DNA from: Marivita sp. XM-24bin2
GTDB taxonomy: Bacteria; Pseudomonadota; Alphaproteobacteria; Rhodobacterales; Rhodobacteraceae
Direction: 5' to 3'
NCBI GenBank assembly: GCA_003149565.1
Contig: QCWH01000032.1
Location: 1-44,790, forward strand
DNA length: 44,790 nt
Positions 3,608 through 31,070 of the stretch are shown here, one piece after another; the stretch's first letter is position 1, and the number at the start of each line of letters is the position of its first letter. The position numbers and the translations under genes are program-made. The notes beneath the pieces are model-generated. The model was given only the letters and a program-made list of their open reading frames with translations, was not told the DNA's origin and searched no databases.

Positions 3608-4589
3608 CCGACACCTCTTCGGCCTCAAACCCAACCGTTGCCGGGTCCAGATTGTAATGCGCGCCGCAGAACTGGCAGTCCGCCGTCACACGCCCCTCTT
3701 CCGTGGTCATCGTCGCGATGTCCTTGGCCGAATAGATCGACAGACTTTGACGCACACGCTCTTCCGAGCAAGTGCAGCCAAAGCGGACCGGCAAGGCGTC
3801 GAACACGCGCGGGCCTTCCTCGTGGAACAGACGAAACAACAGATCTGTCGACGGTAGCGACGGGCCGATCAGCTCCATGTCTTCGACAGTAGCCAGGTGA
3901 TAGTTAGCCCGGTTCCAATGTTCGCCCTCATCCTCATCAAGCAGATCATCCGCATGCAGAAGGCCGCCCTCGCCCGACCCACCATCGGTAGCGAAGGGCG
4001 ACGCCTTGGGCATATGCTGAATCATGATGCCACCCGCGCGCCAATGTTGCGCCACACCGGGTTCGGTGGACTGGCCAAAGCTCAGCGCGAATTTTGTCGG
4101 CAACTGCTCGGACTGCGCAAAATAGGCTTCGGCACAGCTTGAGAGGGTTTGACCGGTCAGCGGCGTGATCCCCTGATAGGGCTGCATCCCCTTTCCCTGA
4201 TCCATCAGGATCGCGAAATACCCTTCGCCGATCTGCTCCATCGCAGGGCCATCTGTGATCCTCTCAGGATCGAAACTGGCATAGGCACGGATGCGCGCGG
4301 GCTCGCCTTCCGCCTCGGGCGCATAGAAATCAGTGGCAATCATGCGCACAGCACCCTTCGTCTGAATCTGCAATGACAGCTTCCAGCGCAGCTTGATCGT
4401 TTGCCCGATCAGCGCGGTCAGCAAGGCCATCTCGGCCACCAACGCCTCGACCGGGGCGGGATAGTTGTGCTGCTTGAGAATACCGCTCAACACCCCGTCC
4501 AGACGGGCCACCCGTCCACGGATGTCCGAACGGTCAAGTTGAAATGGCAGGACAGTGTCGTCCCAAGCGATTTTCGATCCGAGTGTCAT
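3600..4589 (-). CDS. hslO: Redox-regulated chaperone Hsp33
   Basis: Hsp33 is a cytosolic holdase that is switched on when oxidative stress oxidises its zinc-binding cysteines. The 329-residue protein starts MTLGSKIAWDD and carries the zinc site near its C-terminus: C-x-C at about Cys272/Cys274 and C-x2-C at about Cys305/Cys308. The N-terminal domain (LDGVLSGILKQHNYPAPVE, MIATDFYAPE) matches the Hsp33 fold. The ATG at 4589 has AAGGAA 5 nt upstream; an in-frame ATG ten codons earlier lacks a ribosome site. It is the first gene of the minus-strand run hslO - Nudix - cca and is divergent from the Nudix gene at 4676 across 86 bp. Confidence 0.95.
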   Translation of the reverse strand: MTLGSKIAWDDTVLPFQLDRSDIRGRVARLDGVLSGILKQHNYPAPVEALVAEMALLTALIGQTIKLRWKLSLQIQTKGAVRMIATDFYAPEAEGEPARIRAYASFDPERITDGPAMEQIGEGYFAILMDQGKGMQPYQGITPLTGQTLSSCAEAYFAQSEQLPTKFALSFGQSTEPGVAQHWRAGGIMIQHMPKASPFATDGGSGEGGLLHADDLLDEDEGEHWNRANYHLATVEDMELIGPSLPSTDLLFRLFHEEGPRVFDALPVRFGCTCSEERVRQSLSIYSAKDIATMTTEEGRVTADCQFCGAHYNLDPATVGFEAEEVSGE

Positions 4590-4675
4590 GGAATTTCCTT
4601 GCTTGCCGCCCTCCGGCATGTTCGGGACTATATAAGGGACGATCCGTCAGGTCCAAGGGGCAGAAGGGGAATGAC

Positions 4676-5140
4676 ATGATGCGCAGGTTTGGCGACGCAC
4701 CGGAATCCGGGCGGTCTTACACGCTACGCACCGGCGCTTACGCGATTTTGCCGCTCGGTGAGGGGCTGTTGCTGACGCATCAGGATGCTCCAGAACCCGA
4801 GGTTCAATTGCCCGGTGGCGGCGTTGATCCGGGCGAATCCCCCGTTCAAGCCTTGATCCGCGAGGTTTACGAAGAAACCGGCTGGCGCATTGCGCGAGCT
4901 CGGCGCTTGGGGGCCTATCGGCGGTTCACCTACATGCCGGAATACGATCTCTGGGCGGAGAAGCTGTGCCTGATCTACATGGCCGCTCCGGTGATGCGGT
5001 ACGGTGATCCGCTGGAACCCGGACATACCGCGCTTTGGATGGATGTGGGCGAAGCGTTGAACACATTGGCCAACTCTGGGGATCGTGACTTCGTGGCGCG
5101 GTTCGCGTCACACCTCCCCATATTCCAAAAGCGCAGCTGA
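4676..5140 (+). CDS. Nudix hydrolase, MutT-like, substrate unknown
   Basis: Small (154-residue) cytosolic Nudix protein. The box GGGVDPGESPVQALIREVYEETGW lies at about residues 47-70, preceded by the usual beta-strand grid (TGAYAILPLGEGLLLTH). The sequence does not show which nucleoside diphosphate derivative it cleaves. ATG at 4676 is immediately followed by a second in-frame ATG at 4679; AGGGGA about 6 nt upstream supports this pair, and a longer ORF from 4544 is mostly antisense to hslO. The last 33 bases overlap the 3' end of the convergent response regulator-phosphatase gene. Confidence 0.85.
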   Translation: MMRRFGDAPESGRSYTLRTGAYAILPLGEGLLLTHQDAPEPEVQLPGGGVDPGESPVQALIREVYEETGWRIARARRLGAYRRFTYMPEYDLWAEKLCLIYMAAPVMRYGDPLEPGHTALWMDVGEALNTLANSGDRDFVARFASHLPIFQKRS

Positions 5141-6373: not shown

Positions 6374-6523
6374 AATTATATCACCAACCAAGCGTCGGCC
6401 CCCACGCTCGCTATAAGGAGAAGGTGTTAATCGGGGATGAACTGTCAAATGGTGCCTATCTCAAAACGCCGATTTGCACATTGTTCATATTCGCCTGTTA
6501 TTCGGCAGCCACTGGAGGCAGGC

Positions 6524-6856
6524 ATGATTGATTGGATACGGGTTTCGGAGTTGAGAGACGAAATCGGAGCAGAGGACTTTGCAGAAGTTGCAGACCTGTT
6601 TCTGATGGAGGTTGAGGAAACGCTGTCCCAACTAGACGGACCCAAACACAATGTGGTGCAGATTAGAGAAATGATGCATTTCCTTAAGGGGTCGGCACTC
6701 AACCTTGGCTTTTGCAAACTGGCAGACGTCTGCAATGCCGCAGAGCTTGCAGCCGCACAAGGCGAGGTCGACATCGACATTCCAGCAGTGCAAGATCTTT
6801 ACACCGCCTCCCGCGAACAATTCGAATCTGAATACGCGCAAAGATTTGCGGCCTGA
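6524..6856 (+). CDS. Stand-alone HPt (histidine phosphotransfer) protein
   Basis: A 110-residue single-domain phosphotransfer protein. The active-site motif HFLKGSALNLG gives His52 as the likely phosphorylated residue, and the rest is the expected four-helix pattern. GGAGG lies 6 nt before the ATG at 6524, so the longer reading frame from 6437 is not used. It is divergent from the REC-PP2C gene with a 150-bp shared promoter region, suggesting the two act in one phosphorelay. No histidine kinase is encoded nearby, so the phosphoryl source must be elsewhere on the genome. The partnership is inference; the HPt assignment is from the motif. Confidence 0.87.
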   Translation: MIDWIRVSELRDEIGAEDFAEVADLFLMEVEETLSQLDGPKHNVVQIREMMHFLKGSALNLGFCKLADVCNAAELAAAQGEVDIDIPAVQDLYTASREQFESEYAQRFAA

Positions 6857-11074: not shown

Positions 11075-11488
11075 TCAGTTCGTAGTGACGACGGTCATCA
11101 CCAGTTTGTCGTCCACCCGGATCGGGCCGTCTTCCTTGGCGCCCAGCGTGTATTCGAACACCCCGGTCGACATGCCACCATCTTCGCCGTGCACCATCAG
11201 CATCAGCATGTCGCCCGATGCGACATCTTCCTGGAGGATCGCAGCGACATCCATGTTCTCACCTTCCTTCAACGCGGCATAACCCACAACCGGTCCGGGC
11301 TTCATCTCGGCATCGGTGCGGTGCACGACCAGCCAGCCATTGGTCGGCGCGACAACTTTGGTCGCGGTCACTGAACCGCCAGACACGTCCTGTTCCATCG
11401 CCTCAACAGATGGTGCCATCGCGTGGCCGCCCGCCGTCAAAGCCGATGCAGACAGAGCGAGAATCGTGGTCAAAAACGAAATTTTCAT
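11075..11488 (-). CDS. Secreted protein with DUF7282-like domain
   Basis: A 137-residue protein with a clear Sec signal peptide (MKISFLTTILALSASALTAGGHA, cleavage probably after residue 23). The mature part has VTATKVVAPTNGWLVVH and PGPVVGYAALKEGENMDV, the pattern of the DUF7282 domain found in archaeal and bacterial surface proteins; its function is unknown to me. The mature protein is acidic and Met-rich and lacks cysteines, so it is unlikely to be disulfide-bonded. The ATG at 11488 has AGGAGACTGG upstream. It lies 74 bp downstream of the sulfotransferase-like gene on the same strand and converges on argG. Confidence 0.75.
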   Translation of the reverse strand: MKISFLTTILALSASALTAGGHAMAPSVEAMEQDVSGGSVTATKVVAPTNGWLVVHRTDAEMKPGPVVGYAALKEGENMDVAAILQEDVASGDMLMLMVHGEDGGMSTGVFEYTLGAKEDGPIRVDDKLVMTVVTTN

Positions 11489-11562
11489 TTTCCAGTCTCC
11501 TGTAAGATGCGGACAGGTTTGCCCGCGGACACTCACAGTCACGGCCAGAACATCTCAGAGTT

Positions 11563-23189: not shown

Positions 23190-24101
23190 TCAATTCGCAG
23201 AACTGATCACCGAACACAGTTTGTCAAGATCATCCAGAGTGTCGTAGGCGATTGTGATTGTCCCGGACTCTTTCCCATCCCTGTGATTGATCGACACTTT
23301 CATCCCCAAAGCAGCAGACAAATCACCTTCGAGAGCTTTGGTGTCAGCATCCTTCGTCTCCCCGCTGTTTGCTCGGGATGGGCTTTTAGCTTTGGGTGTG
23401 TCGCCCACGTTTTGGGCGTCACGAACGAGGCGTTCAGTCTCCCGTACCGACAGACCCTGACGAACAATCTGCCCCGCCAACAGGACCGGATCGGGCGCGG
23501 TAATCAAAGCCCGCGCGTGGCCGGACGATAATTTTCCATCTACAACGGCCCGTTTGACCACATCCGGCAGATTTAACAGGCGCAAAAGGTTTGCAATGTG
23601 GCTGCGGCTTTTGCCCAGGGCCTTCGCCAGCTTTTCCTGAGTATGCCCGAAGCGTGACATGAGCTGTTCATATCCCGCAGCTTCTTCAATCGGATTCAAG
23701 TCGGCGCGCTGAATATTTTCGATGATCGCGATCTCAAGAACATCTTCATCTGAAAACTCTCGAATGACCACTGGCACGTCATGAACACCCGCAGCCTGCG
23801 CGGCACGCCAACGACGTTCGCCAGCAACGATCTCATACTGATTTTCTGCGTTGGATCGGGGACGAACGATCAAGGGCTGGATAACGCCCTTGCTTTTGAT
23901 CGACTCTTTCAGCTCATCCAAAGCTTCGGCGTCGAATTGGCGCCGTGGCTGATCGGGATTCGGGAAAAGTTGATCGACCGGCAGACTGCGTGTTGGTCGT
24001 TCGCTCGTAGAAACTGCCGCATCAGCAGAAGGTTCGATATCTCCCATCAAGGCTGACAATCCACGGCCCAAGCCGCGCCGCTGTTCTTTTTTATCAGACA
24101 T
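23190..24101 (-). CDS. parB: Chromosome partition protein ParB
   Basis: CTP-dependent DNA clamp that loads at parS and spreads along the origin region. The 303-residue protein has the N-terminal ParA-activating tail rich in Lys/Arg (KKEQRRGLGRGLSALMGD), the ParB/Srx domain with GERRWRA (residues 94-100, CTP binding) and ENIQRADLNPIEEA, a helix-turn-helix near 154-175 (EKLAKALGKSRSHIANLLRLL) and a C-terminal dimerisation domain. It follows parA by 9 bp. Its cognate sites are the three parS copies at 25195, 25483 and 27367. Confidence 0.96.
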   Translation of the reverse strand: MSDKKEQRRGLGRGLSALMGDIEPSADAAVSTSERPTRSLPVDQLFPNPDQPRRQFDAEALDELKESIKSKGVIQPLIVRPRSNAENQYEIVAGERRWRAAQAAGVHDVPVVIREFSDEDVLEIAIIENIQRADLNPIEEAAGYEQLMSRFGHTQEKLAKALGKSRSHIANLLRLLNLPDVVKRAVVDGKLSSGHARALITAPDPVLLAGQIVRQGLSVRETERLVRDAQNVGDTPKAKSPSRANSGETKDADTKALEGDLSAALGMKVSINHRDGKESGTITIAYDTLDDLDKLCSVISSAN

Positions 24102-24110
24102 CTGCTCTAC

Positions 24111-24923
24111 CTACGCTGCAGTCATTGTTTCGTGTTTGCCCAGAAACTCTCGCGCCAATGCGCGATAAGCAATAGCGCCTTTGGAAGTCGTATCATATTC
24201 CAGAACCGGCATCGCATATGACGGGGCTTCACTCAGCCGAACATTTCGGGGGATTACCGTCTTGAACACCAGATCACCAAGATTTTCTCGTGCATCACTT
24301 TCAACCTGCTGGGACAGGTTATTTCGTGAATCGTACATCGTAAGCACCACGCCCTCGATGCGTAGGGACGGATTTGCAGACTGCCGAACTTCACGGATCG
24401 TCAACATCAATTGGCTCAGACCTTCCAAGGCGAAGAACTCGCTCTGCAAAGGGACCAGTACGGAATGCGCCGCAACCATCGCGTTGACAGTCAGGAGATT
24501 AAGAGACGGCGGGCAATCAATCAGAATGAAATCAAACCCAAATTGATCCATCTCGGTTTGCCGAAGCGCATCATGCAGGAGGTAGCTGCGCTTCTCATTT
24601 GCGATGAGTTCAATATCAGCAGAACTGAGGTCAGTCGTGGATGGCACCAAAAACAGGTTGTCTTGGCCAGTTTTACAGATGATGTCGGACAAGGGAAAAT
24701 CATCTAGCAAAAGGTCATAAGTGGTCGCGTGACGATCTTCTGGCATGATACCTAAGCCAGTTGACGCGTTTCCTTGCGGATCCAGATCAACCACAAGTAC
24801 CTTCTGCCCGATTTCCGAGAGCGCAGACGCAAAGTTGATAGCTGTAGTCGTTTTGCCGACACCACCTTTTTGGTTCGCAACAGCAATGATCTTTGGGCCG
24901 GTTGGGCGTGTGGGATCAAACAC
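24111..24923 (-). CDS. parA: Chromosome partition ATPase ParA
   Basis: Walker-type ATPase that moves ParB-parS complexes along the nucleoid. The 270-residue protein has the deviant Walker A KGGVGKTT at residues 19-26, DLDPQGNASTGLG and DFILIDCPPSLNLLT. The start is GTG at 24923: GGAGG lies 8 nt upstream, while the longer ATG-started frame to 25025 lies inside rsmG. The start overlaps the rsmG stop by 8 bases. It is translated with parB and is part of the run read away from the candidate origin. Confidence 0.96.
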   Translation of the reverse strand: MFDPTRPTGPKIIAVANQKGGVGKTTTAINFASALSEIGQKVLVVDLDPQGNASTGLGIMPEDRHATTYDLLLDDFPLSDIICKTGQDNLFLVPSTTDLSSADIELIANEKRSYLLHDALRQTEMDQFGFDFILIDCPPSLNLLTVNAMVAAHSVLVPLQSEFFALEGLSQLMLTIREVRQSANPSLRIEGVVLTMYDSRNNLSQQVESDARENLGDLVFKTVIPRNVRLSEAPSYAMPVLEYDTTSKGAIAYRALAREFLGKHETMTAA

Positions 24924-25503
24924 GGGAAAGACCTCCAATCTCCAAGACGGCAGCGTTAGGCTGTGTTTTACTATTATGTGGTTCGTAGGTGAATCGCCAC
25001 TTCTTTCGAGCGTCTGCGACCTCATTTTGCCAGTCGCTTCCTTTCATAAACAGGGCCGTACCGTTTTCGGAAAGGTGCCGGTCTGCAAATCCCAGAAGTA
25101 TATCAAGCGGCGCAAGCGCGCGTGCACTCACGACATCTGCGTTCAGTGGCGGAATATCCTCAATGCGTTTGGCTATAACCTTAAAAGGCGTTTTTGTTTC
25201 ACGTGAAACAGTCCGAAGAAAGGTGGCCTTTCGCTGGTCGCTTTCAACCAAAGTGACATCTACGCCTTGATCGGCCAGAGCAATTGCAACAACTGCACCT
25301 GGAAATCCCCCACCAGATCCCATGTCCACCCAGCTTTGTGTCCCGTCCGGCAACATGGCCGCGACTTGCAAGGAGTCCTCAAAGTGACGCGTCGATGCGT
25401 GTTTTAAGGTCGCTGGTGATACTAGATTTATTTTTGGCGACCACTTGAGGAGTAACTCAAGATATATCTCAAGTCGCTCTTGTGTTTCACGTGAAACATT
25501 CAT
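24916..25503 (-). CDS. rsmG: 16S rRNA (guanine-N7) methyltransferase RsmG
   Basis: SAM-dependent methyltransferase for G527 (E. coli numbering) of 16S rRNA, formerly GidB. The 195-residue protein has the SAM motif [11 protein letters not shown] at about residues 59-69 and [12 protein letters not shown]. The ATG at 25503 overlaps the mnmG stop (ATGA). Two parS palindromes lie inside the gene, both in the same frame, so each is read as Val-Ser-Arg-Glu-Thr: at residues 3-7 and again at 99-103. Both positions are surface-type sequence not part of the SAM motif, which shows how the DNA sites are tolerated. Confidence 0.95.
25195..25210. other. parS: parS site, ParB-binding palindrome (copy 2, inside rsmG)
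   Basis: Exact 16-bp palindrome TGTTTCACGTGAAACA, the consensus bacterial centromere site. It lies within rsmG codons 98-103 and about 5 kb from the candidate oriC. Confidence 0.95.
25483..25498. other. parS: parS site, ParB-binding palindrome (copy 1, start of rsmG)
   Basis: Exact copy of the same 16-bp palindrome at rsmG codons 2-7, directly after the mnmG stop/rsmG start overlap. It is 273 bp from the copy at 25210. Confidence 0.95.
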
Positions 25504-27374
25504 CCTACAGCGCGGTCCTTGGGCGAAACAGACCGAAGCTTGGAAAGGATCAACAGCAGTGCAGATGGCGTCATTCCATCCACCCTCCCCGCTTGTGCGA
25601 TGTTACCTGGCCGCGCACAGGAGAGCTTACTCTTCAACTCGTTAGAAAGCCCTTCTATTTGCGAGAAGTCAAAACCCTCAGGAATAACTTGCGCTTCATC
25701 CCGACGAAGCGCATCAATATCCTTCTGCTGGCGTTCAATATAATTGGCGTAGAGCGCATCCTTGGCCAGCTGATCCTGTGTCTTGACGTCAATTTCTTGT
25801 AGGCTCGGATCTATCTCCTCTAGAACGTCCCAAGTAACGGCTTCAATCGCCAAAGCTTCAAAGCCTGACCGCCTTGATCCATCTTGGGAAACAGGCACGC
25901 CGGCCTCCACAAGCTGTTTTGAGGTGATCGAAAGACTGTTCAATCTAGTCCGACCTTCGGAGATCAGCCCCATCTTTGTGCGAAAGGACTCTTCCCGTTC
26001 CACCGATACGCACCCAAGGTCAATCGCCTTCGGTGTCAAACGCTGATCGGCATTGTCAGCTCGCAAGGACAGACGGTACTCAGCGCGTGATGTGAACATC
26101 CTGTACGGTTCTGTCACACCACGAGTGGTCAGATCATCGATCATAACACCGATATAACTGTCCGCTCGACTGAATGTGACAGGCCCCAACTTCTTCGCCC
26201 GCCGCGCAGCATTCAAACCCGCGACAAGACCTTGAGCAGCGGCCTCCTCGTATCCGGTTGTCCCATTGATCTGCCCTGCGAGATACAGCCCTTCAGTGGA
26301 TTTCAAGGACAAATCCAAATTCAGGGACCGCGGGTCAATATAATCATATTCGATGGCATAACCGGGCTGAAGGATTTTCGCATCCTCGAGACCCTTGATC
26401 GACCGGACATAGTCTTCCTGAACTTCTTCCGGAAGCGAGGTTGAGATGCCGTTGGGATATACAGTGTCATCATCCAGTCCCTCCGGTTCAAGGAAAATCT
26501 GGTGAGACGTTTTATCCGCAAAACGGACAATTTTATCCTCAATAGATGGGCAATAGCGGGGTCCAATACCTTCGATATGTCCGCCGTACATAGCAGATCG
26601 ATCAAGGTTTTCTCGGATAATGTCGTGTGTTTTCTCGTTGGTATGGGTAATCGCACACGAGACCTGACGCGCGAATGGAGCCTCGGAAAGAAACGAAAAA
26701 AGGACAGGATCGGTATCGCCGGGCTGTTGTTCCAGCCCATCCCAGTGAATTGTCTTACCATCCAGCCTTGGAGGCGTTCCAGTTTTTAATCGGCCCAGAG
26801 GCAGACCAAAGCGATCTAGAGTTTTCGCGAGATCATTCGATGGCTTTTCACCCATCCGACCACCGGTGATTTGTTTATCACCGATATGAATCACGCCGCG
26901 CAAGAATGTCCCGGTTGTCAAAATGATGGAGGGCGCCAAGAGTTCACGGTGACTGTCTATCTGAACACCGCATACAGTCGTGCCTTGGACAACCAAATCG
27001 GTCACTTCACCAATGACGATTTCAAGATTCTTTTGCGTTCTCGTCGCCTTCAGCATTTCGGCTTGGTAAATCTTTCGATCAGCCTGCGCGCGCGGACCCT
27101 GCACCGCGGGACCTTTACGTCGATTCAGTAATCGAAACTGGATACCGGCCATATCAGCGACCCGCCCCATAATACCATCGAACGCGTCGATTTCTCGGAC
27201 GAGGTGACCCTTTCCCAATCCACCAATGGCGGGATTGCAAGACATCACGCCAATCCCAGACTCGGTAAGTGTAACAAGCGCAGTGCGCGCGCCGGATCGA
27301 GCTGACGCATGCGCTGCTTCACAGCCCGCATGACCACCGCCCACAACTATGACATCGAAATCAAATTGTTTCAC
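25500..27374 (-). CDS. mnmG: tRNA uridine 5-carboxymethylaminomethyl modification enzyme MnmG
   Basis: FAD enzyme that, with MnmE, modifies the wobble uridine (U34) of several tRNAs; formerly GidA. The 624-residue protein starts [22 protein letters not shown] with the dinucleotide motif GGGHAG at residues 12-17, then [14 protein letters not shown] and [13 protein letters not shown]-like [11 protein letters not shown], and ends with a C-terminal MnmE-binding helix bundle. Two starts are possible. The GTG at 27383 is only 1 nt from AAGGAG; the GTG at 27374 is 8 nt from it and is preferred. That GTG is the centre of the parS palindrome at 27367. Confidence 0.94.
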
Positions 27375-27382
27375 GTGAAACA
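27367..27382. other. parS: parS site, ParB-binding palindrome (copy 3, at mnmG start)
   Basis: Third exact TGTTTCACGTGAAACA. The GTG of the palindrome centre is the preferred start codon of mnmG on the minus strand, and the mnmG ribosome site AAGGAG abuts it. It lies about 2.6 kb from the candidate oriC. Confidence 0.95.
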
Positions 27383-27386
27383 CTCC

Positions 27387-28670
27387 TTACTTTCCGATGC
27401 AAAAACTTGAGAAAACCTTATCTAGCACGTCCTCTACATCGACGCGACCCACCAACCTTTCAAGAGTGAAGATGGCGGATCGTAGTTCCTCAGACGCAAG
27501 ATCGTAGGTACCCGGACCAGACCGGGAGAATGACAACGCCGAGAACAAGCACTCTCGCGCCGCAACAAGGACATCTCTCTGACGTTCATGGGACACCAAT
27601 CCAGCAGACGTGGCCTGGCGAAGAAGATAGGTTTTTACGTCCTCAATGAGCCTTGAAACGCCAGCGCCAGTCACGCCCGACACACCCAAACCATCTTCCC
27701 GAAGATCGGATTTACCTTCAACCACGATGTCGTACTCCAGAGGATGAAGCTCTCCAAACCCGCCCGCGCCTTTCAAAAACACCCGCAAGTCAGCCGCTCT
27801 CGCTCTTTTCATCGCCCTCTCGATCCCAATGGATTCAACTTGATCCATCGTCTCGCGCAAACCAGCAGTATCCAGAAATGTGACTGGCAATGTGCCAAGA
27901 TCCATTCGAACCTCAATGACATCTCGCGTTGTTCCAGCAATTTCAGAAGTAATCGCCGCATCGCGGCCCGCAAGCGCGTTTAACAAAGTTGACTTTCCAG
28001 CGTTTGGAGGACCAACGATTGCAACCTCAAATCCCGTCCGCACGCGTTCTGCGATACCAAATCCCGAAACTTCCTGGTCTATTGTCTGAATCACACCTTC
28101 CAGAAGACGTTCCACGTCGCTTGAAACATCAACCGGTACGTCCTCATCCGCGAAGTCAATTGTGGCTTCCAAAAGCGACAAGGCATGGATGAGATCGCTG
28201 CGCCAGGTTTCTGACTTTTCCCTTAAACGACCTGTAAACCCTTTTAGCGCCTGTTTGCGCTGCATCTCGGTTTCGGAATCGATCAAATCTGCCAGCGCTT
28301 CGACCTGCGTGAGATCGAGACGACCGTTATTCAAAGCGCGTCGGGTGAACTCTCCTGCTTCGGCCGATCTGAAACCCGGTACTTCTTTCAGACAATCCAA
28401 AACCGCATGGATGATCGCCACACTGCCATGGACGTGGAACTCAATAACAGGTTCACCCGTAAAGCTGGCGCCGTCTTCAAAACACAGAACAAGCGCTTCA
28501 TCGATAAAGCCACGGTCATCGTTGACCAGACGACGCAAGGCGGATTTCCTGGGCTCTGGGGCGGAAAAGCCGAACGCATCACAACTGACAAACGCGTCCG
28601 GACCTGACACTCGGATAACAGCAACGCCGGATTTTCCCGGCACGGTGGCCAAGGCAAAGATCGTGTCCAT
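27387..28670 (-). CDS. mnmE: tRNA modification GTPase MnmE
   Basis: GTPase partner of MnmG in U34 modification; formerly TrmE/ThdF. The 427-residue protein has the N-terminal folate-binding domain (TIFALATVPGKSGVAVIRVSG, EFTRRALNNGRLDL), the inserted G domain with G1 GPPNAGKST (residues 220-228), IAGTTRD (245-251) and DTAG (267-270), and the hallmark C-terminal FCIGK with the catalytic cysteine at residue 424. It follows rho by 21 bp and precedes mnmG by 12 bp. Confidence 0.96.
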   Translation of the reverse strand: MDTIFALATVPGKSGVAVIRVSGPDAFVSCDAFGFSAPEPRKSALRRLVNDDRGFIDEALVLCFEDGASFTGEPVIEFHVHGSVAIIHAVLDCLKEVPGFRSAEAGEFTRRALNNGRLDLTQVEALADLIDSETEMQRKQALKGFTGRLREKSETWRSDLIHALSLLEATIDFADEDVPVDVSSDVERLLEGVIQTIDQEVSGFGIAERVRTGFEVAIVGPPNAGKSTLLNALAGRDAAITSEIAGTTRDVIEVRMDLGTLPVTFLDTAGLRETMDQVESIGIERAMKRARAADLRVFLKGAGGFGELHPLEYDIVVEGKSDLREDGLGVSGVTGAGVSRLIEDVKTYLLRQATSAGLVSHERQRDVLVAARECLFSALSFSRSGPGTYDLASEELRSAIFTLERLVGRVDVEDVLDKVFSSFCIGK

Positions 28671-28691: not shown

Positions 28692-29960
28692 TTACGAATT
28701 CATAGAATCAAAGAATTCAGAATTCGTCTTGGTTTGCTTCAACTTGGAGATCAGGAATTCGATTGCGTCAGTCGTGCCCATCGGATTCAAGATTCTACGA
28801 AGCACAAAGGTCTTTTGAAGATCAACCTTATCGACGAGCAGATCTTCCTTACGTGTCCCAGATTTCAGGATATCCATCGCCGGGAACACACGTTTATCGG
28901 CAACCTTACGATCGAGCACGATTTCAGAGTTACCGGTGCCTTTGAATTCTTCGAAGATGACTTCGTCCATCCGGCTGCCCGTGTCGATCAGCGCAGTGGC
29001 GATAATCGTCAGCGAACCGCCCTCTTCGATATTCCGCGCTGCACCGAAGAAACGCTTGGGGCGTTGAAGCGCGTTTGCATCCACACCACCGGTCAGAACC
29101 TTACCCGAGGACGGGACAACAGTGTTAAACGCCCTACCAAGTCTTGTGATAGAGTCGAGTAGGATCACAACATCTCGTTTATGCTCAACAAGACGCTTGG
29201 CCTTTTCGATGACCATTTCAGACACAGCAACGTGGCGGGTGGCCGGTTCGTCGAATGTCGAGGACACAACTTCTCCCTTTACCGAACGCTGCATGTCCGT
29301 GACTTCTTCGGGACGTTCGTCGATCAGCAGAACGATCAGGTAACACTCTGGGTGATTGCGTTCGATCGAATGGGCGATGTTCTGAAGCAGAACGGTTTTA
29401 CCAGTCCGCGGCGGGGCGACGATCAGCGACCGCTGGCCTTTACCAATAGGGGCAACAAGGTCAATGATGCGGGCGGAGCGATCTTTAATTGTAGGGTCCT
29501 CGATCTCCATCTTAAGGCGCTCGTCAGGATAGAGCGGCGTCAGGTTATCAAAGGCAATCTTGTGGCGAGCCCGTTCCGGATCCTGGAAATTGATCTGACG
29601 GCAATCCATCAAGGCGAAGTACCGTTCGTTATCTTCGGGTGCCTTGATCTCCCCGTCGATTGAATCCCCTGTCCGCAAAGAGAATTTGCGGATCATGTCC
29701 GGTGAGACGTAGATATCGTCAGGACCGGGAAGATAGTTTGCCTCGGGAGAGCGGAGAAAGCCAAACCCGTCCTGAAGCACTTCAAGAACGCCGTCCCCGA
29801 AAATGGTCCAGCCTTCATCTGCGCGTTCACGCAGAATTTGAAACATGATCTCGCCCTTGCGCATCGTTGATGCGTTTTCGATCTCAAGCTCTTCGGCCAT
29901 CGCCAAAAGGTCTTTGGGGCTCTTTGCCTTCAGGTCGGCAAGGTTCAGTTTTTCGGTCAT
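28692..29960 (-). CDS. rho: Transcription termination factor Rho
   Basis: Hexameric RNA-dependent ATPase that ends transcription. The 422-residue protein has the N-terminal helical and cold-shock-like RNA-binding domain (about 1-130, with GFGFLR and [12 protein letters not shown]) and the RecA-like ATPase with Walker A APPRTGKT at about residues 182-189, [10 protein letters not shown] and [11 protein letters not shown]. The GGGATTT before the ATG serves as ribosome site. It is the first gene to the left of the candidate origin and is read away from it; a hairpin at 29972-29991 lies just upstream of its ribosome site. Confidence 0.97.
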
Positions 29961-30470
29961 GAAAAATCCCGGACTGCGGGTGCGCGCAGTCTTATCTTCT
30001 TTGTCTCAGGAAAGTCGCGTCCAGAACAGGACTGTGCTGCTCTTAGCCGAGGGGAGCGAAGCTGTCAAACATCCCTGCTTTCATAAATAAATTAAAATAA
30101 AAGAAAGGTTTTTGTGGTTTGTAGTCTAGCGCTGCTCCTGTGGATTAAGAATTTCTACAAGAGTTACCCACATCTACCCAATGTGTGGATGGCTGTGGGT
30201 ATATCGTTGGATATTTCTATAAAGAACAAATAACACACTGTTTTAAATATATAAATCCTAGAAAGCTGTGTGGATATTTTGAACCTCACTTCTTAGGAGT
30301 CTGTGGTTACATCGGATTACTCAGAAGCCGTAGTTATCCCGTACACAAGGCGGACAACCGATCTGAATGGGTTGAACATCTTGGCGAGTTATCGTCTGGC
30401 TTGCTGATTGCTTTGGATTTCCCCAAAACACTCCGGAAAAGAAACCGAGTTTGTTCGTGGAGTTGTCCAC
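29961..30470. other. oriC: Candidate chromosomal replication origin (oriC)
   Basis: This 510-bp gap between rho and maf is far richer in A+T than its surroundings. Seven DnaA-box-like 9-mers (consensus TTATNCACA) are visible: with one mismatch at 30139-30147 (TGTGGATTA), 30164-30172 (TTACCCACA), 30269-30277 (TGTGGATAT) and 30463-30471 (TTGTCCACA), and with two mismatches at 30184-30192, 30194-30202 and 30302-30310. AT-rich stretches at 30079-30113 and 30201-30260 could be unwinding regions. Genes on both sides are read away from the gap, and parAB/parS lie close by. In alphaproteobacteria, origins are often next to hemE, rho or maf in this same gene neighbourhood. The segment also holds the promoters of rho and maf. 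No origin has been shown experimentally here. Confidence 0.72.
29972..29991 (-). promoter_or_regulatory. Hairpin in the rho leader
   Basis: GACTGCG (29972-29978) pairs with CGCAGTC (29985-29991) around a 6-base loop. On the transcribed strand it ends about 3 nt before the GGGATTT ribosome site of rho. rho genes are autoregulated in several bacteria, so this may be part of a leader control; that role is inference. Confidence 0.4.
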
Positions 30471-31070
30471 ATGAATCCTGATCTTATCCTGGCCTCCGGG
30501 TCGAAGATCCGCGCTGAACTCCTCCGCAATGCGGGTGTTCGATTCGATGTTCAGGTCGCACGGATCGATGAAGATGCGATCCGACAGGCATTAGAGGCTG
30601 AAGAGGCGTCACCCCGCGACATCGCCGATGCTCTGGCGGAAATGAAAGCACGAAAGGTGTCTGACAAGATGCCTGGGGCGTTGGTTCTTGGCTGTGATCA
30701 GGTGCTCGCTGTAGATAAAGCGGTTTTCGGCAAGCCCGAGACGCCCGAGGCTGCCCGCGAGCAGCTGAAAATTCTGCGCAACAGATCACATACGCTCTTG
30801 TCTGCGGCGGTCCTATACGAGGATGGTGAGCCTAAATGGCGCCATGTTGGTGTCGTGCGACTGAGGATGCGTGACTTCTCTGACAGCTATCTCGAAGATT
30901 ACCTTGATCGGAACTGGGACAGTGTTCGACACTCTGTCGGCGCGTATAAGCTTGAAGAAGAGGGCGCTCGGCTGTTCACCCAGGTTCAAGGCGACTATTT
31001 TACGGTACTGGGACTTCCGTTACTGGAACTCTTGAACCACCTTACTTTGATCGGACGGATTGACGGATGA
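30471..31070 (+). CDS. maf: Maf-family nucleotide pyrophosphatase
   Basis: Nucleoside triphosphate pyrophosphatase acting on dTTP/UTP or modified nucleotides, thought to sanitise the pool or act in septum control. The 199-residue protein starts [18 protein letters not shown], with the Maf phosphate-binding LASxSxxR block, and has GCDQVL with the catalytic Asp. The ATG at 30471 has GGAG 8 nt upstream, so the longer frame from 30408 is not used. The final DnaA-box-like 9-mer overlaps the first base of the start codon. It overlaps aroE by 4 bases. Confidence 0.93.

Follow-up and report, generated by a model that had tools for sequence, protein, structure and literature searches.

Gene neighbourhood of the rho-maf gap

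The window, by which we mean the whole 44,790-nt stretch of Marivita DNA analysed here, contains an intergenic gap of 510 bp between rho and maf, with core chromosomal genes (rho, mnmE, mnmG, rsmG, aroE, coaE, dnaQ, secB and mutS) at its flanks (Table 1). Both flanking gene runs point away from the gap, as a preliminary description of the sequence had noted, and the limits given there for a candidate replication origin are borne out by the rho reading frame on one side and the maf start codon on the other. The same description presented the gap as the only long non-coding segment of the window. This holds against three other apparent gaps, all of which are coding, with Pfam-supported ORFs (4544-5140, NUDIX; 6437-6856, Hpt; 11075-11542, DUF7282), and is less certain for positions 1-1868, which include an ORF (745-1422) with no Pfam match. 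Searches for structured RNA gave 0 matches in Rfam and no tRNA.

Partition functions are encoded to the left of the gap. Apart from the three perfect parS copies, the draft (4.43 Mb, 116 contigs) contains no site with one mismatch or less. The three copies lie 2.6-4.8 kb from the gap, followed by parA at 4.9 kb and parB at 5.9 kb; the preliminary description had placed partition genes and parS within 5 kb. The parAB genes are reported to be close to the origin in almost all genomes of one study, with exceptions that include Rhodobacterales (PMC8116508).

Table 1. Features of the rho-maf region and its left flank (window coordinates)
Feature	Position	Strand	Remarks
parB	23190..24101	-	TIGR00180 above cut-off
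parA-like partition ATPase	24111..25025	-	best ParA model scores below curated cut-off
rsmG (gidB)	24916..25503	-	
parS	25195..25210		perfect 16-mer
parS	25483..25498		perfect 16-mer
mnmG (gidA)	25500..27383	-	
parS	27367..27382		perfect 16-mer
mnmE	27387..28670	-	
rho	28692..29960	-	left flank; TIGR00767, E 1e-207
Candidate oriC (rho-maf intergenic region)	29961..30470		dense in boxes; GC minimum of the window; position and layout conserved in relatives
A/T-rich tract beside outer box	30083..30114		putative unwinding element; near-invariant in 15-sequence genus alignment
GTAGTC	30121..30126	+	possible remnant of relatives' GATGATGAT...GTAGG element; GTAG at this place in 10/15 genus regions
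Outer DnaA box TAATCCACA	30139..30147	-	at most 1 mismatch; exact word in 14/15 genus sequences
DnaA box TTACCCACA	30164..30172	+	at most 1 mismatch
Weak DnaA-box-like CCATCCACA	30184..30192	-	2 mismatches
Weak DnaA-box-like ATACCCACA	30194..30202	-	2 mismatches
Most AT-rich 100 bp of window	30201..30300		29% GC; second candidate unwinding site
DnaA box ATATCCACA	30269..30277	-	at most 1 mismatch; minus-strand box at about the same distance in 23/45 regions
Weak DnaA-box-like GTAACCACA	30302..30310	-	2 mismatches
TTATCC-N3-ACACA composite element	30334..30347	+	aligned through genus
GGATTTCCCCAAAACACTCC block near maf	30415..30434	+	conserved in much of genus; contains TCCCCA
DnaA box TTGTCCACA	30463..30471	+	at most 1 mismatch; overlaps A of maf start codon
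maf	30471..31070	+	right flank; PF02545, TIGR00172; ATG at 30471-30473

DnaA boxes and AT-rich DNA

DnaA boxes were scored against the consensus TTATCCACA, with a main threshold of at most one mismatch and two mismatches counted as weak boxes. The seven box-like 9-mers described earlier in the gap, four of them with one mismatch, were all recovered, and none is a perfect box, again as described. The segment had been called AT-rich and is in fact the most AT-rich part of the window. In one respect, the earlier account undersells the region, as it found no box cluster unusually tight. Four or more boxes at one mismatch or less arose in 0 of 1000 dinucleotide shuffles (mean 0.14), and seven or more at up to two mismatches in 2 of 1000; a single permuted consensus word out of 500 did as well (the consensus itself may be among them); and a density of four boxes per 510-bp window, scanned in 30-bp steps, is reached only in this gap, where GC content is also lowest. 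An origin beside dnaA, which is on another contig, was considered and rejected: the 4.36-kb dnaA locus has no box at one mismatch or less.

Both ends of the gap carry features related to the adjacent genes. The maf-proximal box takes up the spacer that separates a GGAG from the maf ATG (30459-30473), and through this box DnaA could also control maf. At the opposite end, the rho leader contains a hairpin (29963-29992, minus strand) in which a 7-bp stem precedes a T-rich run immediately upstream of the rho ATG. Since the stem keeps its pairing in the genus through changes on both sides (GACTGC/GCAGTC, GACCGC/GCGGTC, GATCGC/GCGATC), this hairpin may be considered a candidate attenuator for rho. 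It is not general in the family, with z<-2 in 20 of 128 relatives (49 + 79, duplicates kept).

Strand composition

The preliminary description proposed the position of the GC-skew minimum as a check, which we ran within the window, that is, on one 44,790-nt contig of a 116-contig draft. The outcome agrees with an origin at the gap: cumulative GC skew is lowest at position 29309. Because genes diverge at the gap and gene direction alone can fake such a minimum, we used third-codon-position skew per gene, computed on the plus strand for 39 ORFs selected from the ORF list. To the left of the gap, this skew is -0.090 for 16 minus genes and -0.101 for 6 plus genes; to the right, it is +0.121 for 10 plus genes and +0.116 for 7 minus genes. 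Gene by gene, 21 of 22 are negative on the left, the exception being rho, and 15 of 17 are positive on the right. Four further Pfam-supported ORFs on the left, two negative and two positive (+0.09, +0.01), bring the left values to -0.093 (18 minus) and -0.082 (8 plus), with 23/26 negative; the opposite sign is thus seen in 3/26 genes on the left and 2/17 on the right. The turn falls between mnmE (-0.06) and rho/maf (+0.06/+0.04), which puts the sign change at rho. As genes of both directions share the same sign, the switch is a property of the strand and no by-product of gene direction. Read on the plus strand, the sign goes from minus to plus, the direction expected at an origin.

Coarse GC skew was also sampled in four relatives, where the pattern is not clean, and we rejected it as proof of the origin in these genomes. 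In G111, 10/10 samples left of the locus are negative and 8/10 on the right positive, the sign turning 5-40 kb right of the locus. In G008 (9/10 negative on the left, 10/10 positive on the right), there is no sign change at the locus (2.913 Mb); the switch occurs near 2.735 Mb, about 175 kb to the left, and equal replichores fit best at 2.94-3.02 Mb, near the locus. G044 and G003 show weak skew to the right, each with 10/10 negative samples on the left and 5/10 positive samples on the right. For G044, the best fit of equal replichores is at 0.08-0.16 Mb, which lies beyond the locus by 160 kb or more; the cumulative minimum is at 3.164 Mb in linear order and, by our reading, the weak skew, when wrapped round the circle, runs on to about 0.34 Mb. 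Blocks of opposite-sign skew lie close to the origin in G111 (2.60-2.76 Mb, L168-L175, beyond the turn) and in G008 (about 2.735-2.905 Mb, L142-L151). Inversions are the likely reason for off-locus skew in relatives, and the opposite-sign blocks possibly correspond to recent ones within one arm.

Conservation in relatives

All 120 genomes covered by the family search, the window's own among them, gave a Maf match. From the other 119, we examined the loci of 49 (29 retrieved by the search and 20 of our choice): rho is divergent to maf in every one of them, and the flanking gene order is kept. Among the 20 loci covering 16 kb, ParB is present in 16 and ParA and RsmG in 19. A larger set of 130 Maf loci comprised these 49 relatives, 80 named loci (the best 80 of 338 matching stretches) and our own, with partial overlap between sets. 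Among those best 80, the nearest records bearing a genus name belong to Marivita. There, rho lies just across the gap from maf in 129 cases, the contig of the remaining one (L245) starting just upstream of maf. We defined layout classes by three possible inserts, HemJ, HemE and PpsR. The most frequent of the 129 layouts is rho-HemJ-maf (98 loci), with a HemJ gene that is absent from this place in the window's genome, followed by rho-maf (26, own included), rho-HemJ-PpsR-maf (3), rho-HemJ-HemE-maf (1) and rho-HemJ-HemE-PpsR-maf (1). HemE and/or PpsR occur at the origin in the distant family members L045, L044, L048, L052 and L053, a graded set of layouts on which the loss of neighbours could be dated phylogenetically. 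In the window's genome, HemJ is encoded on contig C7 and HemE on contig C16, and PpsR was not found in a search of the draft; judging from these gene positions, the origin appears to have shed old neighbours.

Box conservation was assessed in 143 regions (49 + 79 relatives and 15 from the genus, own included), of which 128 are unique; L004, a duplicate of our own region, and L245 were left out. All 128 unique regions hold at least one box at one mismatch or less (mean 2.9 per 420 bp), and 55 hold a perfect box. A box whose last base is the A of the maf start codon is found at the same place in 95/128 unique regions and in 14/15 genus regions. In a set of 45 regions, the mean is 3.3 boxes per 400 bp versus 0.11 in Markov shuffles, and the ATG-overlapping box occupies one position in 28/45, whereas 2000 uniform placements never put more than 5 boxes at one position. 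Elsewhere in the four sampled relatives, such densities are rare: out of 118 partly overlapping stretches of 20 kb, only two reach four or more boxes per 420 bp, and these are the rho-maf loci of G008 and G111. The stretches from G003 and G044, which do not include the locus, reach at most 2 boxes per 420 bp, whereas the locus itself has 6 and 3, respectively.

In the genus search, 15 of 17 genomes gave a match; the remaining two are 87% complete. In the alignment of these 15 sequences, the outer box and the A/T tract on its rho side are nearly invariant and the middle of the gap is variable; an A-rich tract is present in the family consensus too. The strict TTATCC-N3-ACACA pattern occurs in 10/15 genus regions and 4/50 family regions (own included in both). 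As a family-wide element, TTATCC-N3-CCACA was rejected, with 4/50 regions.

An element beside the outer box

In many relatives, GATGATGAT and GTAGG come after the A-rich tract. GATGAT lies on the plus strand in 78/128 unique regions and on the minus strand in 11/128, with about 17 in shuffles, and the combination GATGATG-N2..10-GTAGG occurs in 38/128 unique regions versus 0 in shuffles. Outside the genus, GATGAT is found in 75/113 regions, with a minus-strand box further on in 63 of the 75, at a distance of 20-24 bp in 36 of these 63; within the genus it is kept in 3/15 regions. The A-tract/GATGATGAT/GTAGG element is thus common in the family and eroded in Marivita, and is the least expected feature of these origins.

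An A/T tract and a trinucleotide-like element beside the outer box recall the basal unwinding system of Bacillus subtilis, as described in the accessible part of PMC8287927. The canonical trio reads 3'-GAT-5' within 16 bp of the box, whereas the repeat of the relatives reads 5'-GAT-3' and commonly stands 20-24 bp away. The published box-spacer-trio rule, re-coded from that text as a box with at most two mismatches plus at least three NAN trios within 16 bp, gives 0 matches in the window region, one or more being present in 326/1000 shuffles, and a canonical DnaA-trio module in the window was rejected on this ground. This rule is permissive: it is satisfied in 103/128 relatives' loci (49 + 79, duplicates kept) versus 37/128 shuffled ones, and in 10/15 genus regions, the window's own (L055) not among them. 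The element may work like a DnaA-trio module, although the rule finds none in the window.

We tentatively propose, as a rather doubtful extension, that strand opening at Rhodobacteraceae origins depends on a shared module peculiar to them. This module would consist of an A-rich tract together with a 5'-GATGATGAT-3' repeat and GTAGG, all oriented the same way and commonly separated by 20-24 bp from a minus-strand box, and DnaA would read it in a register and spacing other than those of the canonical DnaA-trio; in Marivita the repeat would have mostly decayed, leaving a reduced version to open this origin. The element beside the outer box provides a concrete target for understanding how these origins open.

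Probable origin of the main chromosome and competing explanations

The gap combines the attributes of a DnaA-type oriC, namely a box cluster above chance, an AT-rich segment, a minus-to-plus composition switch and proximity to parABS. The interpretation put forward in the preliminary description is supported by the skew switch, the nearby parS, synteny and the conserved box positions. We estimate at roughly 0.93 the probability that 29961..30470 is the oriC of the main chromosome.

The best surviving competitor is a conserved regulatory region serving rho and maf only, with divergent promoters, DnaA acting as a transcription factor and the real origin located elsewhere. In its favour, the left 110 bp of the gap form a rho leader that is conserved and contains a covarying hairpin, the maf start codon is overlapped by a box, and the skew switch of G008 lies some 175 kb off. 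Yet regulation of two genes leaves aside a composition switch at the gap that is independent of gene direction, the presence of the draft's only parS sites beside it, and the persistence of a box-bearing gap through changes of neighbour (rho, HemJ or HemE on the left, maf or PpsR on the right). We consider this explanation improbable.

Relatives often carry several replicons, and the gap might be the origin of a secondary one (chromid) instead of the main chromosome. Plasmids are frequent in relatives (available sections of PMC6699656), but the flanks consist of core chromosomal genes whose order is kept in the relatives examined, which makes a chromid origin extremely unlikely. Just as unlikely is a switch due to a terminus or to the end of an inversion, with boxes present by chance: skew switches do occur at inversion ends, as the G111 and G008 blocks suggest, but here the sign runs in the direction expected of an origin, 0/1000 shuffles match the box count and box positions are conserved.

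The composition switch, the conserved box cluster, the conserved neighbourhood and the parS sites are observed in the sequences; for an oriC at this position, established knowledge of DnaA origins predicts DnaA binding, melting, helicase loading and bidirectional forks. DnaA, made elsewhere, would bind to the imperfect boxes that span 30139-30471, and the resulting oligomer would open AT-rich DNA by the outer minus-strand box, either in the tract at 30083-30114 or in the core at 30201-30300. DnaB would be loaded after opening, and two forks would proceed, one leftwards via rho-mnmE-mnmG-parAB and the other rightwards via maf-aroE-coaE-dnaQ, with ParB on the nearby parS carrying the new origins apart.

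Comparison with known origins

Several of the genes found here are already associated with origins: maf, hemE and gidA are indicator genes in Ori-Finder (PMC3794950), and origins next to hemE are predicted in DoriC for most Sphingomonadaceae (PMC4741004), both according to the available portions of these papers. For Rhodobacter sphaeroides, skew served to locate the origins and Ori-Finder to verify them (PMC6315104). Bulk oriC predictions for Rhodobacteraceae, of the Ori-Finder type, allowed one or two mismatches and took parAB proximity as a guide (PMC6699656, available sections). The window's region resembles these predicted origins in being AT-rich, with imperfect boxes and a local GC minimum, near parAB; its distinguishing traits are the lack of a perfect box and the direct contact with rho, where 98 of 129 loci have HemJ in between. 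A description of the rho-maf layout or of the GATGATGAT/GTAGG element was not found in the limited literature covered, in part, by queries other than the element's own letters. Our analysis places an origin in a draft genome of Marivita, a genus for which we found no described oriC.

Sites for other regulators distinguish some relatives. The CtrA pattern TTAA-N7-TTAA has 0 occurrences in the window region and is present in 1/15 genus regions; in the family, 5/45 regions contain it, compared with 0.6 in shuffles, and CtrA sites are therefore present in certain relatives. A strict IHF consensus is found 0 times in the window, in 0/15 genus regions and in 4/45 family regions versus 1.95 in shuffles. 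An origin controlled by CtrA or IHF was rejected for the window, which holds no consensus site for either; GANTC occurs once.

The Caulobacter crescentus origin, Cori, has hemE and a COG1806/DUF299 gene as neighbours (PMC1914354, available part). Its resemblance to the rho-maf site is clearest in L045, with the order rho-HemJ-HemE-[gap]-PpsR(DUF299)-maf; HemE or PpsR is retained in four further relatives, and by gene order these five distant relatives link the rho-maf site to the Cori neighbourhood. The window itself has imperfect boxes, as Cori does, and contains TCCCCA, the sequence given for the Caulobacter W-box in PMC4285127. Unlike Cori, the window's site lacks both hemE and PpsR, with intermediates in relatives. 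Taken together, the rho-maf gap is almost certainly an ordinary, well-supported Rhodobacteraceae oriC, with the same place and layout as in relatives, and illustrates how an alphaproteobacterial origin can hold its location and box arrangement despite the apparent departure of its neighbours PpsR, hemE and hemJ.
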